Shown here one piece after another: positions 8,931-29,772 of a DNA stretch of 29,772 nucleotides (position 1 is its first letter; every line of letters begins with the position of its first letter). Both the position numbers and the translations under genes were made by a program. The notes beneath the pieces were generated by a model that saw only the letters and a list, made by a program, of their open reading frames with translations, was not told the origin of the DNA and ran no database searches. Source of the stretch: a virus; the IMG/VR virus record IMGVR_UViG_3300028925_007344, positions 1 through 29,772 of that record; one strand, 5' to 3'.

Positions 8931-9677
8931 TCACGCCTTGCGACGCTTCTTGCTCTTGCTCTTGCTCTTGCCGTTGGGGAGACGACCACGGACTTCGTCG
9001 ACGAGACCGAACTCAAGGGCCTCTTCGGACGACAGCCACCAGTCGCGACGGTCCCACGACTCCTTGATGATCTCGACCGTCATCGATGTACGTGCAACGA
9101 AGATGTCGATGATGCGAGCCTCAACTCGACGGATCCATTCGACACGATCCTCGTTCTCGTACGTCTTGCCTTGCATACCGAAAGCGGCACGATGAATCAT
9201 CGTCCAGCTCTCGGCACCGGCCCAGCGAGTGTCACCGGCCTGCACCAAGATGCCCGCCATGGACGCAGCCATGCCCGAGACACCGGTCGTGATGTGGTGA
9301 CCGAGATCGGATAGGTCGCGGATGAAGTCGAAGAGGATGAACCCGTCGACCACTGAACCTCCACCGGACGAGAAGATGATCTCGATGTCGCAGCCAGGGT
9401 CCCGTCTGCTCCATTGGGTAAGTGCGATCATGCATGCACCAACCGACGCCGACGACACTTCGCCATCGAACCGGTAGATGTTGTTGTGCTTGTCCGCAGA
9501 CCTACGGTTGGCGTCGTCGGCCTCAGCTTTGCTGGCAAGGATCGTCGCAACGGTCGCCATGGCGGAGGCTTCGATAGCTTGCGCTTCGAACAGTGCCGCC
9601 TCGGCATCGAGCTTCCGTGCCGACGCTGCCTTCTCTGCATTGGACCTCACTGGTGCTGTCTTCTTCGTCGTATTCAT
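8931..9677 (-). CDS. ClpP-like serine protease
   Basis: A 248-aa protein with a ClpP/crotonase-fold protease domain. The domain shows IIFSSGGGSVVDGF (ClpP oxyanion strand region), then GVSGMAASMAG with the nucleophile Ser139, then SWTMIHRAAFG with His162. SSEEALEFGLVDEV near the end matches the C-terminal ClpP helix. Residues about 12-62 form an Ala/Glu-rich helix not found in bacterial ClpP, and the C-terminus is Lys/Ser-rich (KSKSKSKKRRK). ClpP-like proteins in phages usually mature capsids, but here a separate prohead protease is next to the capsid gene, so another role is likely. The ATG at 9677 has ribosome site TAGGAGTAACCCA; an in-frame ATG at 9725 overlaps the previous stop and is possible. 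Confidence 0.9.
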   Translation of the reverse strand: MNTTKKTAPVRSNAEKAASARKLDAEAALFEAQAIEASAMATVATILASKAEADDANRRSADKHNNIYRFDGEVSSASVGACMIALTQWSRRDPGCDIEIIFSSGGGSVVDGFILFDFIRDLSDLGHHITTGVSGMAASMAGILVQAGDTRWAGAESWTMIHRAAFGMQGKTYENEDRVEWIRRVEARIIDIFVARTSMTVEIIKESWDRRDWWLSSEEALEFGLVDEVRGRLPNGKSKSKSKKRRKA

Positions 9678-9721
9678 TGGGTTACTCCTAGGTTTAGGCT
9701 TCGGATCTTGCTTGTCTTCGT

Positions 9722-9937
9722 TCATCGCCACCATCTCCGTAGCGGATCGAGCCGGGTCGGAATGACCCGCTCGAAGTGCAACGCCAGGAAGAGGAACAAC
9801 GGGCGGACCCATGCTCTCCGGCGGTACACGGCTGCCGAGATGGTCTCTCGGTCACCGGCGATCGCCCAGCAGTCGTAGACCGCTGCGACTGCCGCAATGG
9901 CCAAGATGGCACGTTCACCTTCAGTGGTCACGGCCAT
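9722..9937 (-). CDS. Small membrane protein of actinophage type
   Basis: A 71-aa protein with a hydrophobic N-terminal segment (about 10-27, AILAIAAVAAVYDCWAIAG) and a second one (about 45-55, RPLFLFLALHFE). The GDRETIS motif between them and the LDPLRRW end resemble small membrane proteins common in actinobacteriophages, which usually sit in early or accessory regions and have no known function. The ATG overlaps the end of the upstream coiled-coil gene by 17 nt, with a GGGGGGA ribosome site. Confidence 0.65.
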   Translation of the reverse strand: MAVTTEGERAILAIAAVAAVYDCWAIAGDRETISAAVYRRRAWVRPLFLFLALHFERVIPTRLDPLRRWWR

Positions 9938-10287: not shown

Positions 10288-10521
10288 TCAGTCCCATCCG
10301 TTGTGGCCGCAATACCACACGTCTACGGCTGCTGCGGGCAGCGCATCGAATACGTGGTCGACAGTGTCCCGGTGGCCACGCTCATGCGCAGCGTTCCAGT
10401 ACCCGCAGCCTGAGCACGAGCGCTCGGCGTCGGCTGCCGCCATGAAGAATGGCAGATCGAATCTCGATGGCGCCGTCTTGCCGCAATGGCATCGGGCGAC
10501 ACGTCCTTGGATGTTCGTCAT
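10288..10521 (-). CDS. Zinc-ribbon-like small protein
   Basis: A 77-aa protein. CHCGKTAP near residue 11 and CSGCGYWNAAH at about 36-46 provide two Cys pairs, as in a zinc ribbon; a later CGH could add ligands. The ribosome site is CAAGGAGCAAGGAC and the ATG overlaps the HNH gene stop (ATGA). Function unknown; zinc ribbons of this size in phages often bind nucleic acid or host proteins. Confidence 0.7.
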   Translation of the reverse strand: MTNIQGRVARCHCGKTAPSRFDLPFFMAAADAERSCSGCGYWNAAHERGHRDTVDHVFDALPAAAVDVWYCGHNGWD

Positions 10522-11330
10522 TGTCCTTGCTCCTTGTCCTTGTTGTCGTCACGAGGTCGGCGGCTTGCCGCCTCGTCTTCCCACCGTGCAGCCCTCAAAG
10601 CGTTGTCACGGATGACCGCCCGGTTCGAGCATGTCAGCCAGCCGATGAGCCTGTCGGTGAAAGTCATGACTCCATTGTACCACACGTCTGATCGCGTTCC
10701 TCGGTCAGCTCGTTCGGCCAAGAGCCGAATGAGCTGATCGTGTTCCTCGGTCAGCACGGCGAACTCTTCCTCGGTCCGCTTTCCTTTGACCATGTTGCAG
10801 CGGGCGCACTTCAGCGCCAGGTTCTCGGCGACGTCCTTTCCGCCACGTGCCAGCGGCACGAGATGGTCGACGTGGATCTTCTCACCGGCCCAAACGATCT
10901 CGGACATCTGCCGGTCGCAACCGGAGCACGTCGGGTCGGCGTGTCGGTCGATGGATTCGTACAGCTTCCGGTTGCTGCTCAGCGAATGAATAGCGCACGA
11001 CTGCTGCACGCCCGACGGTCGGTGCGAGTCAAGGCTGAACGCTTGCAGTGGGCATGAGCCTCCGCCCTTGCGGCACGGTTGCATGCCGCCACGGTCACGG
11101 GCCTTGTTCCATTCCCAAACCTCGACATGTCGTTCCCATGTCTCCATCGCAGCACGGCGAGCTCCACGGTCACGGAAGTTGGCAGTGTTGCATGTCCGGC
11201 AGTTGCCCTGCAGGCCAGACGTATTCGATGCGTTCTTATTGAACGAAGCCCACGGCAGCCAGTCGGTGCAGTTGCTGCAGCGCCTCGTTCCGTTGACGTA
11301 GTTCGTTGACACGTTCACGTTGCCGCCCAT
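10518..11330 (-). CDS. HNH endonuclease with N-terminal zinc ribbon
   Basis: A 270-aa nuclease. The N-terminus has CSNCTDWLPWASF and GNCRTCN, a treble-clef or ribbon module commonly joined to HNH domains in phages. The HNH core is at about 130-180: CSGCDRQM, HVDHLVPLARGG with the catalytic Asp-His, then ENLALKCARCN with Asn and the second Cys pair. About 90 further residues follow, rich in Arg and charged residues. The TGATG overlap with the upstream 40-aa gene fixes the start. It may be a free-standing homing nuclease or a DNA-processing enzyme; placement in the accessory region, away from terminase, favours the first. A TACAAT preceding an internal ATG (about 10667) might allow a shorter C-terminal product. 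Confidence 0.85.
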   Translation of the reverse strand: MGGNVNVSTNYVNGTRRCSNCTDWLPWASFNKNASNTSGLQGNCRTCNTANFRDRGARRAAMETWERHVEVWEWNKARDRGGMQPCRKGGGSCPLQAFSLDSHRPSGVQQSCAIHSLSSNRKLYESIDRHADPTCSGCDRQMSEIVWAGEKIHVDHLVPLARGGKDVAENLALKCARCNMVKGKRTEEEFAVLTEEHDQLIRLLAERADRGTRSDVWYNGVMTFTDRLIGWLTCSNRAVIRDNALRAARWEDEAASRRPRDDNKDKEQGQ

Positions 11331-11452: not shown

Positions 11453-11473
11453 GCTGTTGCTCCTTGTCTCGGT

Positions 11474-11545
11474 GACCCGGTCGGGTCCTTGCCTTCGTGC
11501 GACACCGGGTCGTGAACCCTCGCCGGTCTTTCACCGGGGTGCCGC
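11474..11545 (-). ncRNA. Repeated structured RNA element, copy D
   Basis: Minus-strand RNA with P1 GCGGCAC/GTGTCGC (7 bp, one G-U) closing two hairpins: P2 CCGGT-GAAAG-ACCGG and P3 GGGT-TCACG-ACCC. A 10-11 nt linker leads to P4 GACCC-GACC-GGGTC, then the ribosome site and ATG of the 40-aa gene. P2 differs from the other copies at two positions, both changed on both sides so that pairing is kept. The element is best described as a cis-acting leader RNA. Confidence 0.75.
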
Positions 11546-11552
11546 TCCTGTC

Positions 11553-11714: not shown

Positions 11715-11785
11715 CGTTCCCACCGCTCCAGGACGATGGTTCCGATGACGATCACTGCGATCACTGCGATGGCTGCGAGCATCAT
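11711..11785 (-). CDS. 24-aa membrane peptide
   Basis: A tiny frame encoding MMLAAIAVIAVIVIGTIVLE then Arg-Trp-Glu-Arg: one transmembrane helix with a basic end. Its ATG overlaps the lipoprotein stop (ATGATG) and its stop overlaps the next ATG (ATGA), so it is tightly coupled to both. The pattern of coupled overlaps is the main support. It could be a small membrane effector acting with the lipoprotein. Confidence 0.5.
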   Translation of the reverse strand: MMLAAIAVIAVIVIGTIVLERWER

Positions 11786-12243
11786 GCACCGCAGTCTGTG
11801 TCGAGCGTTTGCCAATCGCCATCCACGAAGCGGAGGCTTTCAGTGTCACCTTCGCTGCCGAAGTTGCCCCACATCTCAGCAGCCTCTGAGCCTTCCACGA
11901 ACGACGTGGACACGAACGACGTGGCGCCAAGGTTGAAGTCGATGACCTCTACCACCAGGTCTCCAGCGATGTCGTCGAGCTTGAGGCCAGTGAATGCCTC
12001 GACCATTGCGAAGTCTCCTGCGATGTCCGCCCCGGTGGACCCGGCGCATCCGTCGTGCGCAGCCAGCCAGCCGAAGTCTCGATCAGCGACGGCGGCGATC
12101 GCAGTTGCGAAGTGAGCCCGAAGACCAGCCTCAGTTTCCTCCGGGACACTGGGCCCCGATCGAGTCGAGGCGCAAGCCCCGACTACCATCACCAGCGCTG
12201 CCGCCACTGCCACTGCCTTGATCCTTGAATTGTTGTTGCTCAT
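11782..12243 (-). CDS. Phage-encoded lipoprotein
   Basis: A 153-aa exported lipoprotein. The N-terminus has a basic start, a hydrophobic core (about 9-21) and a lipobox VGAC with the lipidated Cys24, followed by ASTRSGPS. The mature part is acidic. Its pattern, ending in SLRFVDGDWQTLD, is reminiscent of NTF2-like surface proteins; this is a weak impression. Surface lipoproteins made by phages often block superinfecting phages or change the host envelope, which is a plausible but unproven role here. Ribosome site CAAGGAGCAGCAACA; the structured RNA element at 12265-12334 stands just upstream. Confidence 0.85.
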   Translation of the reverse strand: MSNNNSRIKAVAVAAALVMVVGACASTRSGPSVPEETEAGLRAHFATAIAAVADRDFGWLAAHDGCAGSTGADIAGDFAMVEAFTGLKLDDIAGDLVVEVIDFNLGATSFVSTSFVEGSEAAEMWGNFGSEGDTESLRFVDGDWQTLDTDCGA

Positions 12244-12264
12244 TGTTGCTGCTCCTTGTTCGTT

Positions 12265-12334
12265 GACCCGGTCGGGTCCTTGCCTTCGTGCGACATCGGG
12301 TCTCGAACCCTCGCCAGCCTGCGCTGGATGCCGC
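12265..12334 (-). ncRNA. Repeated structured RNA element, copy C
   Basis: P1 GCGGCAT/ATGTCGC, P2 CCAGC-GCAG-GCTGG, P3 GGGT-TCGAG-ACCC and P4 GACCC-GACC-GGGTC on the minus strand. The last P1 pair is T-A where other copies have C-G, with both sides changed. It separates the end of the upstream gene from the lipoprotein ribosome site. Confidence 0.75.
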
Positions 12335-12342
12335 TGCTTGCT

Positions 12343-12621: not shown

Positions 12622-12643
12622 TTCGTTGCTCCTTGTGTTTGTC

Positions 12644-12657
12644 GACCCGGTTGGGTC
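12644..12657 (-). repeat. Isolated P4 hairpin of the RNA element
   Basis: GACCC-AACC-GGGTC, identical to P4 of the copy at 13998-14067, followed at similar distance by the AAGGAGCAAC ribosome site. The P1-P3 part is missing; instead the start of a reading frame (MNNTE) is fused directly upstream. It may be a truncated copy of the element. Confidence 0.6.
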
Positions 12658-12674
12658 CTTGCTCTCGGTGTTGT

Positions 12675-12872
12675 TCATCGGACAACCTCGACCGTCTCGT
12701 CGGAGTGGAATTTCCGGAGGTACGTGCATCGAGATCGCCATGCGACGTATACGAAGCGCTTGTCGTCGAGGTCGACTTCTGTGGCGGTGTGGACTACGCC
12801 GTTTGGGGCAACGAACCTGTCGCCCACCTTGAGCTCGGTGACTGGTGTTGTGGTGATCTCGGTGTTGTTCAT
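12675..12872 (-). CDS. Small beta-rich protein from a putative leaderless mRNA
   Basis: A 65-aa protein starting MNNTEITTTP. The pattern VGDRFVAPNGVVHTATEVD, DKRFVYVAW, suggests a small SH3-like barrel. The ATG is only 7 nt from the end of the -10 box TACATT, so transcription should begin at or next to the ATG; no ribosome site is present. The first seven residues (MNNTEIT) are identical to those of the gene at 14078-14212, owing to an 86-bp repeat. Function unknown. Confidence 0.7.
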   Translation of the reverse strand: MNNTEITTTPVTELKVGDRFVAPNGVVHTATEVDLDDKRFVYVAWRSRCTYLRKFHSDETVEVVR

Positions 12873-12937
12873 GTACCTCAATGTACGGGTCATGCGAGCA
12901 GAAACCAACGTCGCACCGAAAGAATCTCGGAGAAGTT
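12852..12937. repeat. 86-bp direct repeat, left copy
   Basis: Matches 14192-14277 with a single mismatch (12922 versus 14262). It spans the region upstream of a promoter, the promoter and the first codons MNNTEIT of the gene. The two copies are in the same orientation, 1340 bp apart, and bracket the phospholipase D-like gene. Confidence 0.95.
12880..12908 (-). promoter_or_regulatory. Phage promoter copy 2 (TTGGTT-17-TACATT)
   Basis: The -35 TTGGTT (12908-12903) and -10 TACATT (12885-12880) boxes with a 17-bp spacer identical to the copies at 14220 and 16236. The ATG of the 65-aa gene begins at 12872, leaving 7 nt after the -10 box, which points to a leaderless transcript. Confidence 0.85.
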
Positions 12938-13974
12938 CATCGGTGCGTCCCGGACTGCGAGCCATCGATGATGCCATGGAACTTTGAGTAGGCGACGAAG
13001 TCGGATGCGTGCCGTGACTGCACTGACATCTCGTCGTTCGTGGTGAACGACCGCCCGACCATGTTCGTTGAGCCGGTGATCACCAGCGTCTTGCCCTGGC
13101 GGCCGTTGTAGGTCCCGGAGAACGCCAGGAACTTAGCGTGCACGTTGGATTGGTGCTCCGCCTCGAACTTCGTTTCGGTAGCCGTAGCCGGTGCCTTGAT
13201 CCAATCGTGTAGGCGGGCCCGGTACGTACCGGACCAAACCAGGTCGACCTTGCAGCCACGCTTCGCAGCTTGGCGAAGCTCAGAGATAAACGCCCGGGTT
13301 ATGCGCCCCGGCTTCATGTGCCCGAAGGCCAGCTGGATCACGCAGTCGGGGCCAGACATCTTCGCAACCCGACGGCCGTAGAAGTCGAGGCCACTCGCCC
13401 CGGGCACCATCATGCCGTATCCGCCATCGTAGGCTGCCGTGTACCGGTCATCGTTGGACGTCACGGCAGCAACGATCGCAGCGTGCGTACGTGGGGCATC
13501 GGCCCTACGGATCAACATGGCGCCCTCGAACAGGGTCGAGCCGGGGCCCCAGTTGCCGGACGACACGAGCGCCCAGTCATCTGCAGCGATCACCTTCTGG
13601 TGGTTGATGAACGTCCCTGAGCACGAACTGTCGCACACGGTGACGGCGGCGCCGTTGGCACGCAGCTCGTCGAGGTACCGCCCAGACAGCCACGTCACTT
13701 GCCGGGCCTCGGTGCGTAGCGTGACGGCGACGCCCCGCCCGAGAGCGTCGATCAGCGCCCGATGGATCTCGGCGTTGCGGTAGACGAAGATCGAGATCCT
13801 CAGATGGTCGCCAGCAGGAGTCGCATCGACCCGGGCCTCAACGTCGTCGTGTAGCTCGTTGGCCGTGCCGACGATACTGGTAGGCTCAGCAGCTGCAGCA
13901 GCGTCACCGACGCCAACAACAGACGCAGCAGCGAACACTGCTACCGCAACGATCGTGCAGCCAACCTTGTGCAT
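12937..13974 (-). CDS. Secreted phospholipase D-like protein
   Basis: A 345-aa protein of the phospholipase D superfamily with two HKD motifs. The first is NHQKVIAADDWALVSSGN (His125, Lys127, Asp132, Asn141) and the second NVHAKFLAF with TGSTNMVG downstream (His279, Lys281, Asn304). Residues 1-29 form a signal peptide: Lys3, a hydrophobic core IVAVAVFAAASVV and a small-residue run DAAAAA ending near residue 29. The product should therefore be exported. PLD-fold enzymes cut phosphodiester bonds in phospholipids or nucleic acids; substrate cannot be read from sequence. The start at 13974 is preceded by GAGGAGCAGG and by an RNA element copy. The upstream open frame to 14148 overlaps that element and is rejected. 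Confidence 0.9.
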   Translation of the reverse strand: MHKVGCTIVAVAVFAAASVVGVGDAAAAAEPTSIVGTANELHDDVEARVDATPAGDHLRISIFVYRNAEIHRALIDALGRGVAVTLRTEARQVTWLSGRYLDELRANGAAVTVCDSSCSGTFINHQKVIAADDWALVSSGNWGPGSTLFEGAMLIRRADAPRTHAAIVAAVTSNDDRYTAAYDGGYGMMVPGASGLDFYGRRVAKMSGPDCVIQLAFGHMKPGRITRAFISELRQAAKRGCKVDLVWSGTYRARLHDWIKAPATATETKFEAEHQSNVHAKFLAFSGTYNGRQGKTLVITGSTNMVGRSFTTNDEMSVQSRHASDFVAYSKFHGIIDGSQSGTHR

Positions 13975-13997
13975 GTAACGCCCTGCTCCTCGTTCGT

Positions 13998-14067
13998 GAC
14001 CCGGTTGGGTCCTTGCCTTAGTGCGACACCGGGATCTGATCCCCGCCAGCCTGCGCTGGAGTGCCGC
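13998..14067 (-). ncRNA. Repeated structured RNA element, copy B
   Basis: P1 GCGGCAC/GTGTCGC, P2 CCAGC-GCAG-GCTGG, P3 GGGAT-CAG-ATCCC and P4 GACCC-AACC-GGGTC on the minus strand, ahead of the phospholipase D-like gene. P3 differs in sequence from all other copies but keeps a full hairpin, which is strong evidence for selection on structure. Confidence 0.75.
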
Positions 14068-14077
14068 TGCTTCGCGT

Positions 14078-14212
14078 TCAGCCTTCGAGGATCTGCGTCC
14101 CCCAGACTTCGACCAGCGCGCTGCGCTCATCATCTGAGGTCGCTGCACGGTAGATGGCCTGCGCCTTCATCATCTTGACTTCTTCTCGCTGGGTGATCTC
14201 GGTGTTGTTCAT
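14078..14212 (-). CDS. 44-aa protein from a putative leaderless mRNA
   Basis: A 44-aa charged helical protein beginning MNNTEITQREEVKMMKAQAI. The ATG stands 7 nt after the -10 box of the promoter at 14220-14248 and has no ribosome site. The first seven residues are shared with the 65-aa protein at 12675-12872 through the 86-bp repeat, and the rest is unrelated. Its stop lies 10 nt before RNA element copy B. Confidence 0.65.
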   Translation of the reverse strand: MNNTEITQREEVKMMKAQAIYRAATSDDERSALVEVWGTQILEG

Positions 14213-14277
14213 GTACCTCAATGTACGGGTCATGCGAGCAGAAACCAACGTCGCACCGAAACAATCTCGGAGAAGTT
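14192..14277. repeat. 86-bp direct repeat, right copy
   Basis: Same orientation and one mismatch relative to 12852-12937. It carries the promoter and the start of the 44-aa gene; its right end overlaps the DnaA-box-like TTGTCCACA by two bases. Confidence 0.95.
14220..14248 (-). promoter_or_regulatory. Phage promoter copy 3 (TTGGTT-17-TACATT)
   Basis: The -35 box at 14248-14243 and the -10 box at 14225-14220 have a 17-bp spacer. It is the first promoter after the terminator at 14589-14618, so it should start the accessory transcription unit (44-aa gene, phospholipase D-like gene and beyond). Confidence 0.85.
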
Positions 14278-15109: not shown

Positions 15110-15328
15110 TCACGCTGGGGTGACGTTGCGTCTTGCAGATGTTGCGACGCCGATGACGCCGATGACTGCCAGGATTATTCCGTCGACGTCGAGCCCTGTT
15201 GCGAACTCGACGAGCTCCGTGCCCGATACGCCGACGACGTTGGCTATCGCCATGACTATGGCTGTCACTGCAGCACGAACCATGACTGGCTCCCGCCTGA
15301 TGATGGCCTTGATTGTTTCGATGCTCAT
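15110..15328 (-). CDS. Holin-like small membrane protein
   Basis: A 72-aa protein with two hydrophobic segments: about 16-34 (VRAAVTAIVMAIANVVGV) and about 48-64 (VDGIILAVIGVIGVATSA). The N-terminus is charged (IKAIIRREPV) and the C-terminus short and basic (RRNVTP). The IRREPV start and RxxVTPA end recall putative holins and membrane proteins of actinophages. It would form membrane lesions that let the endolysin out. The endolysin gene is 9 kb away, so the lysis genes are not in one cassette. ATGA-type overlap with the upstream gene. Confidence 0.65.
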   Translation of the reverse strand: MSIETIKAIIRREPVMVRAAVTAIVMAIANVVGVSGTELVEFATGLDVDGIILAVIGVIGVATSARRNVTPA

Positions 15329-15657
15329 TGCTGGTGCTCCATGGTTGTGCGCTGTCCTCGGTTGAGGGATTGCAATGCGAGAAGGTTCCAGACCGCAGCG
15401 CTGAGATGTTCGGTGCCGGACTCCTCGTCTAGTTCTTGTCCGCCGATGAACTTGGTCAGATGCCGGACAGCAGCGTCGGTGTATTCCTGGTCGGGTTTGC
15501 CGCCGAGCATGAAGTTGGGTAGTCCTGTTTCTTCGTCGTCCGGGTACTTGTCTCGCCCGACTGCCATATGGATGGCGAGCTGCTCAAGGCCACGAGCCAT
15601 CCAGAGGATCTGGCTCATCTCGGGCTTGCCAGCGTTGTCTCTCGCTGCGGGCTTCAT
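15325..15657 (-). CDS. dATP/dGTP pyrophosphohydrolase-like protein (MazG-like fold)
   Basis: A 110-aa protein matching the N-terminal domain family of phage dATP/dGTP diphosphohydrolases (all-alpha NTP-PPase fold). The pattern is visible in order: NAGKPEMSQILWMARGLEQLA, GRDKYPDD, LPNFMLGG, then DAAVRHLTKFIGGQELDEES and TEHLSAAVWNLLAL. The Glu/Asp residues in the last two helices are the expected metal ligands. It would hydrolyse dNTPs to dNMPs, shifting the nucleotide pool during infection. Phages with modified adenine bases use a related domain to remove dATP, but no base-modification gene is visible here. It overlaps both neighbours by ATGA-type junctions. Confidence 0.75.
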   Translation of the reverse strand: MKPAARDNAGKPEMSQILWMARGLEQLAIHMAVGRDKYPDDEETGLPNFMLGGKPDQEYTDAAVRHLTKFIGGQELDEESGTEHLSAAVWNLLALQSLNRGQRTTMEHQQ

Positions 15658-15824: not shown

Positions 15825-15843
15825 GGTGTTGCTCCTTGTTGTC

Positions 15844-15916
15844 GGCCCGGTTGGGCCATTGCTTGCGTGCGGCACTGGGTCGTGAACCCTCGCCAGCCCT
15901 TACGCTGGGGTGCCGC
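15844..15916 (-). ncRNA. Repeated structured RNA element, copy A
   Basis: P1 GCGGCAC/GTGCCGC (7 Watson-Crick pairs), P2 CCAGC-GTAAGG-GCTGG, P3 GGGT-TCACG-ACCC and P4 GGCCC-AACC-GGGCC on the minus strand. P1 is fully paired here, where other copies have a G-U, and P4 has C-G where others have A-T, both sides changed. It precedes the ribosome site of the 56-aa gene. Confidence 0.75.
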
Positions 15917-15958
15917 TACCTCGGTTTACACGGTGGTGTTCCTGTAAACCAAGGTAGC
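15915..15958 (-). terminator. Long hairpin, terminator-like, without T-run
   Basis: A 16-bp inverted repeat with one mismatch position (a G-U on one strand) and a 12-nt loop; arms at 15915-15930 and 15943-15958. It lies 10 nt after the stop of the 71-aa gene and runs directly into RNA element copy A, sharing two bases with P1. With no T-run it may work with Rho, protect the mRNA end, or switch with P1 folding. Confidence 0.5.
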
Positions 15959-16206: not shown

Positions 16207-16224
16207 GCGGGAACTGTTTCCCGC
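16207..16224 (-). promoter_or_regulatory. Leader hairpin between promoter and ribosome site
   Basis: GCGGGAA-ACAG-TTCCCGC, a 7-bp stem with 4-nt loop, starting about 11 nt after the -10 box of the promoter at 16236-16264. It would be near the 5' end of the mRNA, ahead of the GGCC hairpin that presents AGGAGG in its loop. It may protect the mRNA 5' end or be part of translation control. Confidence 0.5.
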
Positions 16225-16235
16225 TGACAAAGATC

Positions 16236-16264
16236 AATGTACGGGTCATGCGAGCAGAAACCAA
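16236..16264 (-). promoter_or_regulatory. Phage promoter copy 4 (TTGGTT-17-TACATT)
   Basis: The -35 box at 16264-16259 and the -10 box at 16241-16236 have the same 17-bp spacer as the copies at 12880 and 14220. It lies 19 bp after the stop of the membrane-protein gene. Unlike the two leaderless copies it has a leader of about 45 nt with two hairpins before the ATG at 16184. Confidence 0.85.
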
Positions 16265-16282
16265 CGTCGCCCCGAAAGAATC

Positions 16283-16519
16283 TCAGATTAGTGCAACTGC
16301 GATCGATACCGCTGCGCCGATGACCGCCACAAGGATCGTCATCAGCATGCGGGTCTGTCGTAGTTGCCCGATGCGGAGCTGCTCGACGCCAGCGGTAAGC
16401 GTCACGAAGCGCAGGTCCATGAGCTTCTGCCGTTCTGACACGATGGTGTCAAGTACCGCAAGCCTGGATGCGACAGTTGCGATGTTGTCGTGATCGTCGG
16501 TTACTTCTCTCGGTGCCAT
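16283..16519 (-). CDS. Coiled-coil membrane protein, holin or lysis-accessory type
   Basis: A 78-aa protein. Residues about 10-50 form an amphipathic helix (ATVASRLAVLDTIVSERQKL), and the C-terminus is one transmembrane segment (LMTILVAVIGAAVSIAVALI). This layout, soluble helix then a C-terminal anchor, resembles XhlA-type lysis-associated proteins. The start at 16519 is chosen for ribosome site GAAGGAAACATCA; a GTG at 16558 overlapping the previous gene is the alternative. A second holin-like protein is encoded at 15110-15328. Confidence 0.65.
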   Translation of the reverse strand: MAPREVTDDHDNIATVASRLAVLDTIVSERQKLMDLRFVTLTAGVEQLRIGQLRQTRMLMTILVAVIGAAVSIAVALI

Positions 16520-24246: not shown

Positions 24247-24660
24247 TCAAGTCCTTCTTGTAGATAGATCTTCGGTGATCTTGTTCAGTTGCTTCTCGTA
24301 CGCTGCACGGACTTCGTCCTGCCGCTTGTCGTATGCCTCATATATGAACGGACGTGCGGGTATGCCCCGGGCAGCCCAGCCGAAGTGGATTGGGCCTGCG
24401 TACTGCACGCCCTTCGCTGTACCAGCCTTAACGAACGCTGCGGATGGTCCGCCCTGAGATCCAATAGACTTGGCGAGCTTCCCGGATGCGACCGGTGCGA
24501 CCGTCTTGGCTTCGTCGGCAACAATCTGGCCTGCAGCCTTGTTCGCTTTACGGATCTCTTTCGCCGTGTCTTTGTCTTTGGCTTTCCGCAGCGCACGCTG
24601 CAGATCCTTCAGCCCTTCGACCTCGACACCGATCATGCCGTTCTTCTTCTTCGCTGCCAT
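24247..24660 (-). CDS. HK97 gp10-like tail completion protein
   Basis: A 137-aa protein of the HK97 gp10 family. GVEVEGLKDLQRALRKAK at the N-terminus, then an Ala-rich helix (AAGQIVADEAKTVAPVASGK), LAKSIGSQG, and GIPARPFIYEAYDKRQDEV near the end are characteristic. It helps join the tail to the head. It is unusual that it lies after the tube gene and the endolysin; in most siphoviruses it comes before the tube protein gene. TGATG overlap with the endolysin. Confidence 0.85.
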   Translation of the reverse strand: MAAKKKNGMIGVEVEGLKDLQRALRKAKDKDTAKEIRKANKAAGQIVADEAKTVAPVASGKLAKSIGSQGGPSAAFVKAGTAKGVQYAGPIHFGWAARGIPARPFIYEAYDKRQDEVRAAYEKQLNKITEDLSTRRT

Positions 24661-25469
24661 CAGATCACCAAGGCTTCCCGTAGTTTACGCCAGACAGCTT
24701 TGCCGACGACGATGTCGCCCTGATACGAGACCCGGACCAGGCCGACGTCTTTGCAGAACTGCAGGACGGCACGTGAAGTGGCCGGGCCCCATGGGCCGGT
24801 ACCAACGATGTCGTATCCAAGGAATCCTAGAGCCCGCTGCAAGGCGTCGATGCGACGCTTGCGCCAGACGAACACGTTGCGGATGTCGTTTACTCGAAGG
24901 TTCGCACGTCCGATGCGTGGAAGCTTCGGTGCCTCCGGCCCAGCCAGCACGATGACCGGCGCAGCTTCAGACTTGACGTCAGAAGCGACCGGCATGCCAC
25001 GACTGATCCATTCGGTTAGAGCTTCACCAGGGCACGCAGTTGACCAGGCGTCACGGTGAGGCTTGACGTCGAGCTCACGGCCGACGTGGCGGTTGATCGA
25101 CTCGATCTGTTCACGGACAGCGAGCAGCGCATCGACAGAAACCTTCTGGCCTTTGCCGACACCGACGAAGATGCTGTACGACTTGCCAGCCTCGGAAGGA
25201 GATGTTGCTCCGTCTTGCACATTGAAGCCACGCCCACCGAACCTGTTGCCAAGGACATCGACTAGGAAGCTGTAAGCCACATCCCGGTAGTTCGAGGTCG
25301 TCGTATTCAGGTGGTATCGCTGGATCGCCCTCGGAAGAGCGAAGCCGGTAAGCGTGATCGGCGGTCCGTTGTAGTGGACGAAGATGGTCTCGACGTTGGC
25401 GTCGGACATCTCGGTCGGTGGACGCTTCCAGGGTGCTGCGCCCCACTGGGCACGGTTGTAGTAAGCCAC
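24660..25469 (-). CDS. Endolysin: N-acetylmuramoyl-L-alanine amidase with binding domain
   Basis: A 269-aa amidase_2/PGRP-type lysin. Zinc ligands are His32 (FVHYNG), His138 (KPHRDAWSTACPG) and Cys146. DVAYSFLVDVLG matches the family's DVxYxFLxD strand. It cuts the bond between MurNAc and L-Ala in the host wall. The C-terminal part (about 200-269; RIDALQRALGFLGYDIVGTG, WGPATSRAVLQFCKDVGL) is a peptidoglycan-binding domain of the PG_binding_1 type. No signal peptide. The GTG at 25469 is chosen for ribosome site AGAAGGA; an upstream ATG frame would translate through the hairpin at 25499. Its place inside the tail cluster is odd and could mean a virion-associated lysin. Confidence 0.85.
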   Translation of the reverse strand: MAYYNRAQWGAAPWKRPPTEMSDANVETIFVHYNGPPITLTGFALPRAIQRYHLNTTTSNYRDVAYSFLVDVLGNRFGGRGFNVQDGATSPSEAGKSYSIFVGVGKGQKVSVDALLAVREQIESINRHVGRELDVKPHRDAWSTACPGEALTEWISRGMPVASDVKSEAAPVIVLAGPEAPKLPRIGRANLRVNDIRNVFVWRKRRIDALQRALGFLGYDIVGTGPWGPATSRAVLQFCKDVGLVRVSYQGDIVVGKAVWRKLREALVI

Positions 25470-25498
25470 TGATATCAGTCCTTCTGCACGGGATAGAA

Positions 25499-25530
25499 GG
25501 GCCTGGCAGCTCCGTGCAGCCACCAGGCCC
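25499..25530 (-). terminator. Hairpin after the tail tube gene
   Basis: Outer stem of 8 bp (GGGCCTGG/CCAGGCCC), a 2x2 internal loop, 3 more pairs and a 6-nt loop, followed on the minus strand by TTCTAT. It starts 8 nt past the tube stop. It may be a partial terminator or a 3'-end stabiliser that raises tube protein yield over the genes downstream. Confidence 0.6.
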
Positions 25531-29084: not shown

Positions 29085-29717
29085 TCAGCGAATGAAGCGA
29101 TGACGAACAACGAGAAGTGGCTCAGCTTGCATTGCCGAGTCGGCTTCTTCGTCGCCGTTGTTGTCGCTGCAGATTCTTGCTTCGAGCTCGCCAGCGGCAG
29201 CAGCCGCAGCCAGCTCGTCGATATCGATCGAGTGATCGGCTGCGAGACTACGCAGAGCCGCACTCGTGTCCTGGTAAGCGGGAACCGTTACAGGTCCGAC
29301 GTCACGCAGAGCAACTTCTTGGAGTACACGGTGCGTTCCGGTCCAGTCGTCCTTTATGACCCGGAACCCGAACGACGACCCTTTGAGGTCGCCCCGGCCG
29401 AGAAGAACACCGACGTCACGGCCAAGCTGAGTGTCGGGAAGGTCGATCTCGTAACCGAGACCGCGATCATCTTTGTTGAGCCTCAACGTCCCGGAGGACG
29501 ACCGACCAAGAAGCATGTCCATCTCGTGGTTGAAGAGACCAAGAACGTCGGTCTCTTGAATGGTCTTGTCGAAAGCGGACCGGCCGACAGACTCGGTGAA
29601 GCCGCCGATGTTGGTCGGGGAATCGAACACGGCTGCGTAACCGACAGCGGTGATTCCACCGCCGTCAGCACTTCGCAGCTCGAAGCCTTCGTCTAGGTTG
29701 CGTCGCTCGTTGCTCAT
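29085..29717 (-). CDS. HK97-type prohead protease
   Basis: A 210-aa serine protease of the U35/S78 type. The catalytic residues expected from HK97 gp4 are at the right places: His64 (GLFNHEMDMLLGRSSSGTL), Ser114/Ser115 (LKGSSFGF) and the acid in VALRDVGPVTVPAY (about 135-148). The start has the family pattern GYAAVFDSPTNIGGFTE. It cuts the capsid delta domain during head maturation. The C-terminal ~50 residues are acidic and probably removed by self-cleavage. ATGA overlap with the portal gene. Confidence 0.95.
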   Translation of the reverse strand: MSNERRNLDEGFELRSADGGGITAVGYAAVFDSPTNIGGFTESVGRSAFDKTIQETDVLGLFNHEMDMLLGRSSSGTLRLNKDDRGLGYEIDLPDTQLGRDVGVLLGRGDLKGSSFGFRVIKDDWTGTHRVLQEVALRDVGPVTVPAYQDTSAALRSLAADHSIDIDELAAAAAAGELEARICSDNNGDEEADSAMQAEPLLVVRHRFIR

Positions 29718-29770
29718 GCTGGGCCTTCCGTGATTGGTTCCGTTGGCGGAAGCGCCTCGGGGTCGATGTC
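29714..29770 (-). CDS. C-terminal end of an upstream gene, probably portal (partial)
   Basis: The last 18 codons, DIDPEALPPTEPITEGPA, ending in a TGA that overlaps the protease ATG. The acidic, Pro-rich end and the place just before a prohead protease are typical of portal proteins. The 5' part lies beyond the window, so the name rests on gene order. Confidence 0.65.
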   Translation of the reverse strand, partial: DIDPEALPPTEPITEGPA

Positions 29771-29772
29771 CA

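Follow-up and report, generated by a model that had tools for sequence, protein, structure and literature searches.

We analysed a window of 29,772 bases, the full length of a linear IMG/VR record from an actinophage-like siphovirus. The window carries genes for capsid, prohead protease, tail, tape measure, endolysin, exonuclease, primase and DNA polymerase, together with genes for a Gp3-like recombination directionality factor, a RusA-like resolvase and a sigma-like factor. The 29,772-base record is probably a fragment, as neither a terminase nor a portal gene could be identified in it. An actinobacterial host is likely, because the primase is 45% identical to Arthrobacter phage primases and the capsid protein is matched best by genomes of Pseudonocardia and Glutamicibacter. 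Gene order from the minor tail genes to the polymerase resembles that of Arthrobacter phage VResidence, which carries a serine integrase, making a temperate life style plausible. Membrane proteins and an endolysin occupy the VResidence interval that here holds a gene of the phospholipase D (PLD) superfamily. The endolysin-type gene of the window (24660-25523, minus strand) lies among the head–tail genes, not at the VResidence lysis position, and is conserved at 63% in related contigs L003-L005. Also on the minus strand are a Clp-protease-like or head maturation protease-type gene in the early region (8931-9812), additional to the prohead protease at 29085-29771; an HNH or endonuclease VII-like gene whose product weakly resembles the HNH domains of IscB and Cas9 (10518-11330); and a gene for a short protein matching the dATP/dGTP diphosphohydrolase N-terminal domain (15325-15657; 1e-18).

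The PLD gene (12937..13974, minus strand) is an intact open reading frame of 345 codons that starts with ATG at 13974, downstream of a GAGGAG Shine–Dalgarno sequence, and encodes a predicted exported PLD-fold protein of 345 amino acids. Its codon usage and GC content are near those of the core phage genes, with GC (63.6%) slightly higher than theirs. Two stretches of the protein score over the curated Pfam cut-off for PLDc_2 (PF13091; 4.6e-20, 72.2 bits, cut-off 27) and the gene lies in a record that also carries structural (capsid, tail, tape-measure) and replication (primase, polymerase) genes, as expected from the preliminary description of a phage-encoded PLD-superfamily protein. Motif 1, HQKVIAAD (13579..13602, minus strand; H125, K127, D132), is followed by SSGNW (N141), and its H and N are invariant in 9/9 aligned sequences. 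Motif 2, HAKFLAFS (13117..13140, minus strand; H279, K281, and S286 replacing Asp), is followed by TGSTN (S302, N304) and NDE (313-315), leaving its H, K and GSxN residues intact. By sequence and alignment, TGSTNMVGRSFTTNDE (13030..13077, minus strand) supplies the GSxN and acidic residues of the second active-site half. The half-sites thus take the forms SSxN and GSxN (SSGN, GSTN). The same description had claimed two complete HKD motifs; the strict pattern, HxKx4D in both halves, is complete in the first (H125-K127-D132) but reads HxKx4S in the second (H279-K281-S286), so the claim was wrong by one residue. Both Asp positions vary across homologs in the nine-row alignment (D132 column, DERTEAAST; S286 column, SESDDETDD).

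The N-terminus, MHKVGCTIVAVAVFAAASVVGVGDAAAAA followed by EPT, includes the protein's most hydrophobic segment and has the form of a classical Sec-type signal peptide, predicted to span residues 1 to about 29 (13888..13974, minus strand) with its hydropathy maximum at residues 4-20. A hydrophobic leader is also present at the N-terminus of 7/8 homologs, in agreement with the earlier claim of a clear signal peptide. All four mature cysteines (C114, C118, C211 and C241) are invariant in 9/9 aligned sequences; a guess from the sequence would pair C114 with C118 and C211 with C241. The His and Asn residues and the four cysteines common to all nine sequences support family membership and an exported, oxidised location, and we infer that the protein is exported, oxidised and enzymatically active. 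The sequence supports the earlier description of a phage-encoded, exported PLD-fold protein.

Two 86-nt repeats, 99% identical and 1340 bp apart, flank the PLD gene. The upstream copy (14192..14277, minus strand) contains TTGGTT-17-TACATT and a probable leaderless ATG, the downstream copy (12852..12937, minus strand) begins at the PLD stop codon, and a third, incomplete copy occupies 16208-16293. The promoter-like TTGGTT-17-TACATT is present in 3/3 copies with an ATG close behind in both full copies; this promoter reading was made by eye, and a consensus scan found no sigma-70 promoter. The repeats could offer a recombination route for gain or loss of the cassette. Between the promoter-like repeat and the leader of the PLD gene lies a 44-codon open reading frame (14079..14212, minus strand).

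A leader of about 90 nt directly precedes the start codons of four neighbouring accessory genes. On the minus strand, its copies lie before the PLD gene (13982..14068), before a gene for a putative lipoprotein (12248..12335), and before genes starting near 15825 (15828..15917) and near 11453 (11456..11546); a degenerate fifth copy (12625..12687, minus strand; 32 bits with the leader model) retains hairpin C and the Shine–Dalgarno sequence. The putative lipoprotein (11782..12243, minus strand; 153 amino acids, lipobox VGAC) has no family match and is a possible surface partner of the PLD protein. The minimum-energy fold is the same in all four full leader copies: a three-way junction with a hairpin, hairpin C, before the Shine–Dalgarno sequence (z-scores -1.6 to -2.65). 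With stems assigned by hand, 21/21 counted pairs are kept, four of them with compensatory changes on both sides, a count that comes from few copies and from stems picked in those same sequences. Rfam gave no match up to E = 5, and searches elsewhere with the leader model found no convincing copy; we judged the single match in 296 genomes, at a chromosomal gene end with hairpin C poorly paired, to be chance.

As a single query, the PLD protein found no relatives in phage, plasmid, IMG/VR or genome-contig collections, and relaxing the phage search to E up to 10 added chance-level Listeria phage matches only. Among 396 Actinomycetota genomes it gave one weak match (27% identity; E = 1.4e-4 per genome, which is weak over the whole 396-genome search). 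A two-row profile built on this match retrieved further secreted PLD-like proteins, down to 8e-33, and a profile of five rows detected members in 6/61 genomes of one actinobacterial family, 2/6 of them already in the profile. Because these iterative profiles contain the query, the shared cysteine pattern makes the stronger case for membership. The protein is 20-25% identical to secreted two-domain PLD-like proteins of Actinomycetota (L195, L197, L196, L203-L206), which likewise have a hydrophobic leader, two PLDc_2 domains, four cysteines and His and Asn in both half-sites; the cysteine pattern was checked in these L loci. H125, N141, H279, K281, S302 and N304 are invariant in the nine-row alignment, as are the four cysteines. 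The phage protein differs from these relatives in being phage-borne, in keeping the motif 1 Asp where theirs vary and in its shorter loop after motif 1. We conclude from the leader, the two domains, the four-cysteine pattern and the statistically supported sequence relation (the single-sequence match, then the profiles) that the phage PLD protein is a new, divergent addition to a known family of secreted actinobacterial PLD-like proteins. A tblastn search with one family member also matched Streptomyces plasmid genes annotated 'phospholipase D-like domain-containing protein' (for example, WP_331737964.1). Another actinobacterial member (L163:49-2505) is fused to an apparent glycerophosphodiester phosphodiesterase domain, recognised by eye.

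Among viruses, a strict motif pattern, which finds this window and some family members and misses L196, found nothing in IMG/VR. No PLD domain was present in 30 viral records linked by the capsid protein, the closest of which do not span the accessory region. PHROGs gave a single match, phrog_17878 (unknown function; E = 0.0014), so that no known phage enzyme family was matched, and among viral predicted structures just four matched at E <= 0.001, including a single phage structure, from Microcystis phage LMM01. Viral sequence searches have little power at 20-25% identity, and relatives at such divergence could be missed. Finding no other phage copy, in searches of low power at this divergence, agrees with the earlier suggestion that phage genomes do not normally include exported PLD proteins. 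Phage-carried exported enzymes as such are not a new idea, since prophages of Streptococcus pyogenes encode exported nucleases and a phospholipase A2 (spd, sdn and slaA; PMC13292671), likewise exported nuclease and lipase types carried as phage accessory genes, in their case in streptococcal hosts. The phage-borne PLD version appears to be rare within the collections searched, at limited search sensitivity. We take the folds of the spd, sdn and slaA products to be unrelated to the PLD fold.

An AlphaFold model built from nine sequences reached moderate to low confidence (pTM 0.62, mean pLDDT 60). Foldseek comparisons with this model suggested full-length matches to two-domain PLD-fold proteins, namely polyphosphate kinase, the Serratia PLD 7E0M, vaccinia F13 and PLD3/PLD4, and matches over one domain to Nuc and NucT. 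The highest query TM-score among the matches listed was that of 7E0M (0.61). In profile comparisons, Nuc was the top solved match of the five-row profile (8e-11), whereas the nine-row profile placed 7E0M, a phospholipase D, first (5.9e-12), NucT second and Nuc third. The comparison with PLD nucleases and phospholipases that had been proposed for this protein therefore supports a PLD fold and yields nearest relatives of both types, 7E0M and NucT/Nuc, at similar scores. The Serratia plymuthica enzyme 7E0M resembles the phage protein in its signal peptide, two domains per chain and GS motif (PMC8004604) but has two complete HKD motifs and is only 14-15% identical over the structural alignment. 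Nuc (1BYR) and NucT (6EHI) share the PLD fold and GSxN with the phage protein (profile E 1e-8 to 1e-10) but are single-domain proteins with one HKD motif each, unlike the two domains per chain found here. Several family members match NucT and DrmC models weakly, and one matches plasmid Nuc-type proteins by tblastn.

Assignment to DrmC, DpdK or cardiolipin synthase was rejected on model scores. The phage protein scored 19 bits with the NucT model (cut-off 297), 18.7 and 14.9 bits with NCBIfam cardiolipin synthase models (cut-offs 281 and 787), 22.9 bits with that for DISARM DrmC (133) and 17.7 bits with that for DpdK (100). For Streptomyces-type phospholipase D, the first GG/S motif lacks GG (SSGN, GSTN; criterion from PMC8004604).

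The substrates suggested earlier, lipid, extracellular DNA and competitor DNA, are all candidates, since the nearest solved relatives include both 7E0M, which is a phospholipase D, and the nucleases NucT and Nuc, at similar scores; our literature search found no paper testing the substrate of the secreted actinobacterial PLD-like family. In the PLD superfamily, two halves form one active site and catalysis passes through a phospho-histidine intermediate. In the phage protein, the two PLD halves would form a single active site in which one His would give rise to the phospho-enzyme and the other would serve as general acid/base. We give about an even chance to the reading that this is an accessory, moron-type actinophage gene for an exported, disulfide-stabilised, two-domain PLD-superfamily phosphodiesterase that probably acts outside the membrane, perhaps on nucleic acid. 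The placing of Nuc at the top of the five-row profile and of NucT and Nuc second and third in the nine-row profile, the weak matches of several family members to NucT and DrmC models, the plasmid Nuc-type matches and the GS motif point weakly to a nuclease, and we weakly favour nucleic acid over phospholipid. GS rather than GG is common to Nuc, NucT, Zuc and the Serratia PLD and sets them apart from Streptomyces PLDs (PMC8004604); the substrate argument from GS is weak, since 7E0M, the top nine-row match, has GS too. Tentatively, the candidate substrate would be extracellular DNA, debris DNA around lysing cells or incoming DNA; lipid attack near lysis would be an alternative use. Against this reading, the second Asp is missing, which leaves enzyme activity putative, and the structure model is of low confidence.

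An exported phospholipase D that cleaves membrane lipids of the host or its neighbours, for example in auxiliary lysis or envelope remodelling, is a real but less probable alternative to the nuclease. The leading places of 7E0M in query TM-score, among the matches listed, and in the nine-row profile would suit it, although Nuc and NucT score almost equally and Streptomyces PLDs have a GG that is missing from the half-site. The fusion of one actinobacterial member to a glycerophosphodiesterase-like domain, identified by eye, points the same way. So does position: in the corresponding interval, between its minor tail genes and the Cas4 exonuclease, VResidence encodes membrane proteins and the endolysin, so an envelope-acting enzyme would fit a gene at the lysis-gene position of a related phage too; the endolysin of the window, however, lies elsewhere (24660-25523). 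We consider it unlikely that the protein is a catalytically weak or inactive PLD-fold protein with a cell-surface binding role, such as excluding other phages. Motif 2 without its Asp, the shorter spacing of the first motif (SSGN) and 75-80% divergence from every homolog would be consistent with such a role, but both half-sites keep all their His, Lys and Asn residues and the Asp positions vary in homologs too. A cytoplasmic, non-exported enzyme of 403 amino acids is very improbable: the frame is open upstream as far as a GTG at 14148, but this extension would cross the conserved leader and its Shine–Dalgarno sequence, whereas the ATG at 13974 has a good Shine–Dalgarno sequence, opens the signal peptide and gives an architecture like that of the family.

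The leader may be a more unusual feature than the PLD enzyme itself. Repeated elements just upstream of several phage genes, the SAS and ESAS repeats, are known from cluster K mycobacteriophages; ESAS is described as a pair of imperfect 17-bp inverted repeats flanking a variable spacer (PMC3203893). The leader resembles SAS/ESAS in its repetition, position and inverted repeats, and differs in being longer, with a predicted three-way junction. We raise, as a tentative and somewhat doubtful proposal, that the accessory genes, including those for the exported PLD protein and the lipoprotein, are co-switched through one repeated structured leader, which would be a new kind of phage cis-acting RNA.

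RNA-based co-regulation of accessory genes in a phage could be tested on this repeated folded leader. The small phage version of the PLD protein, which keeps the conserved residues, would be convenient for substrate testing of the PLD-like family. If the preferred reading of the protein as an exported phosphodiesterase holds and the enzyme is active, an actinophage would arm infected or lysogenic cells with an enzyme akin to the secreted enzymes of actinobacteria themselves.
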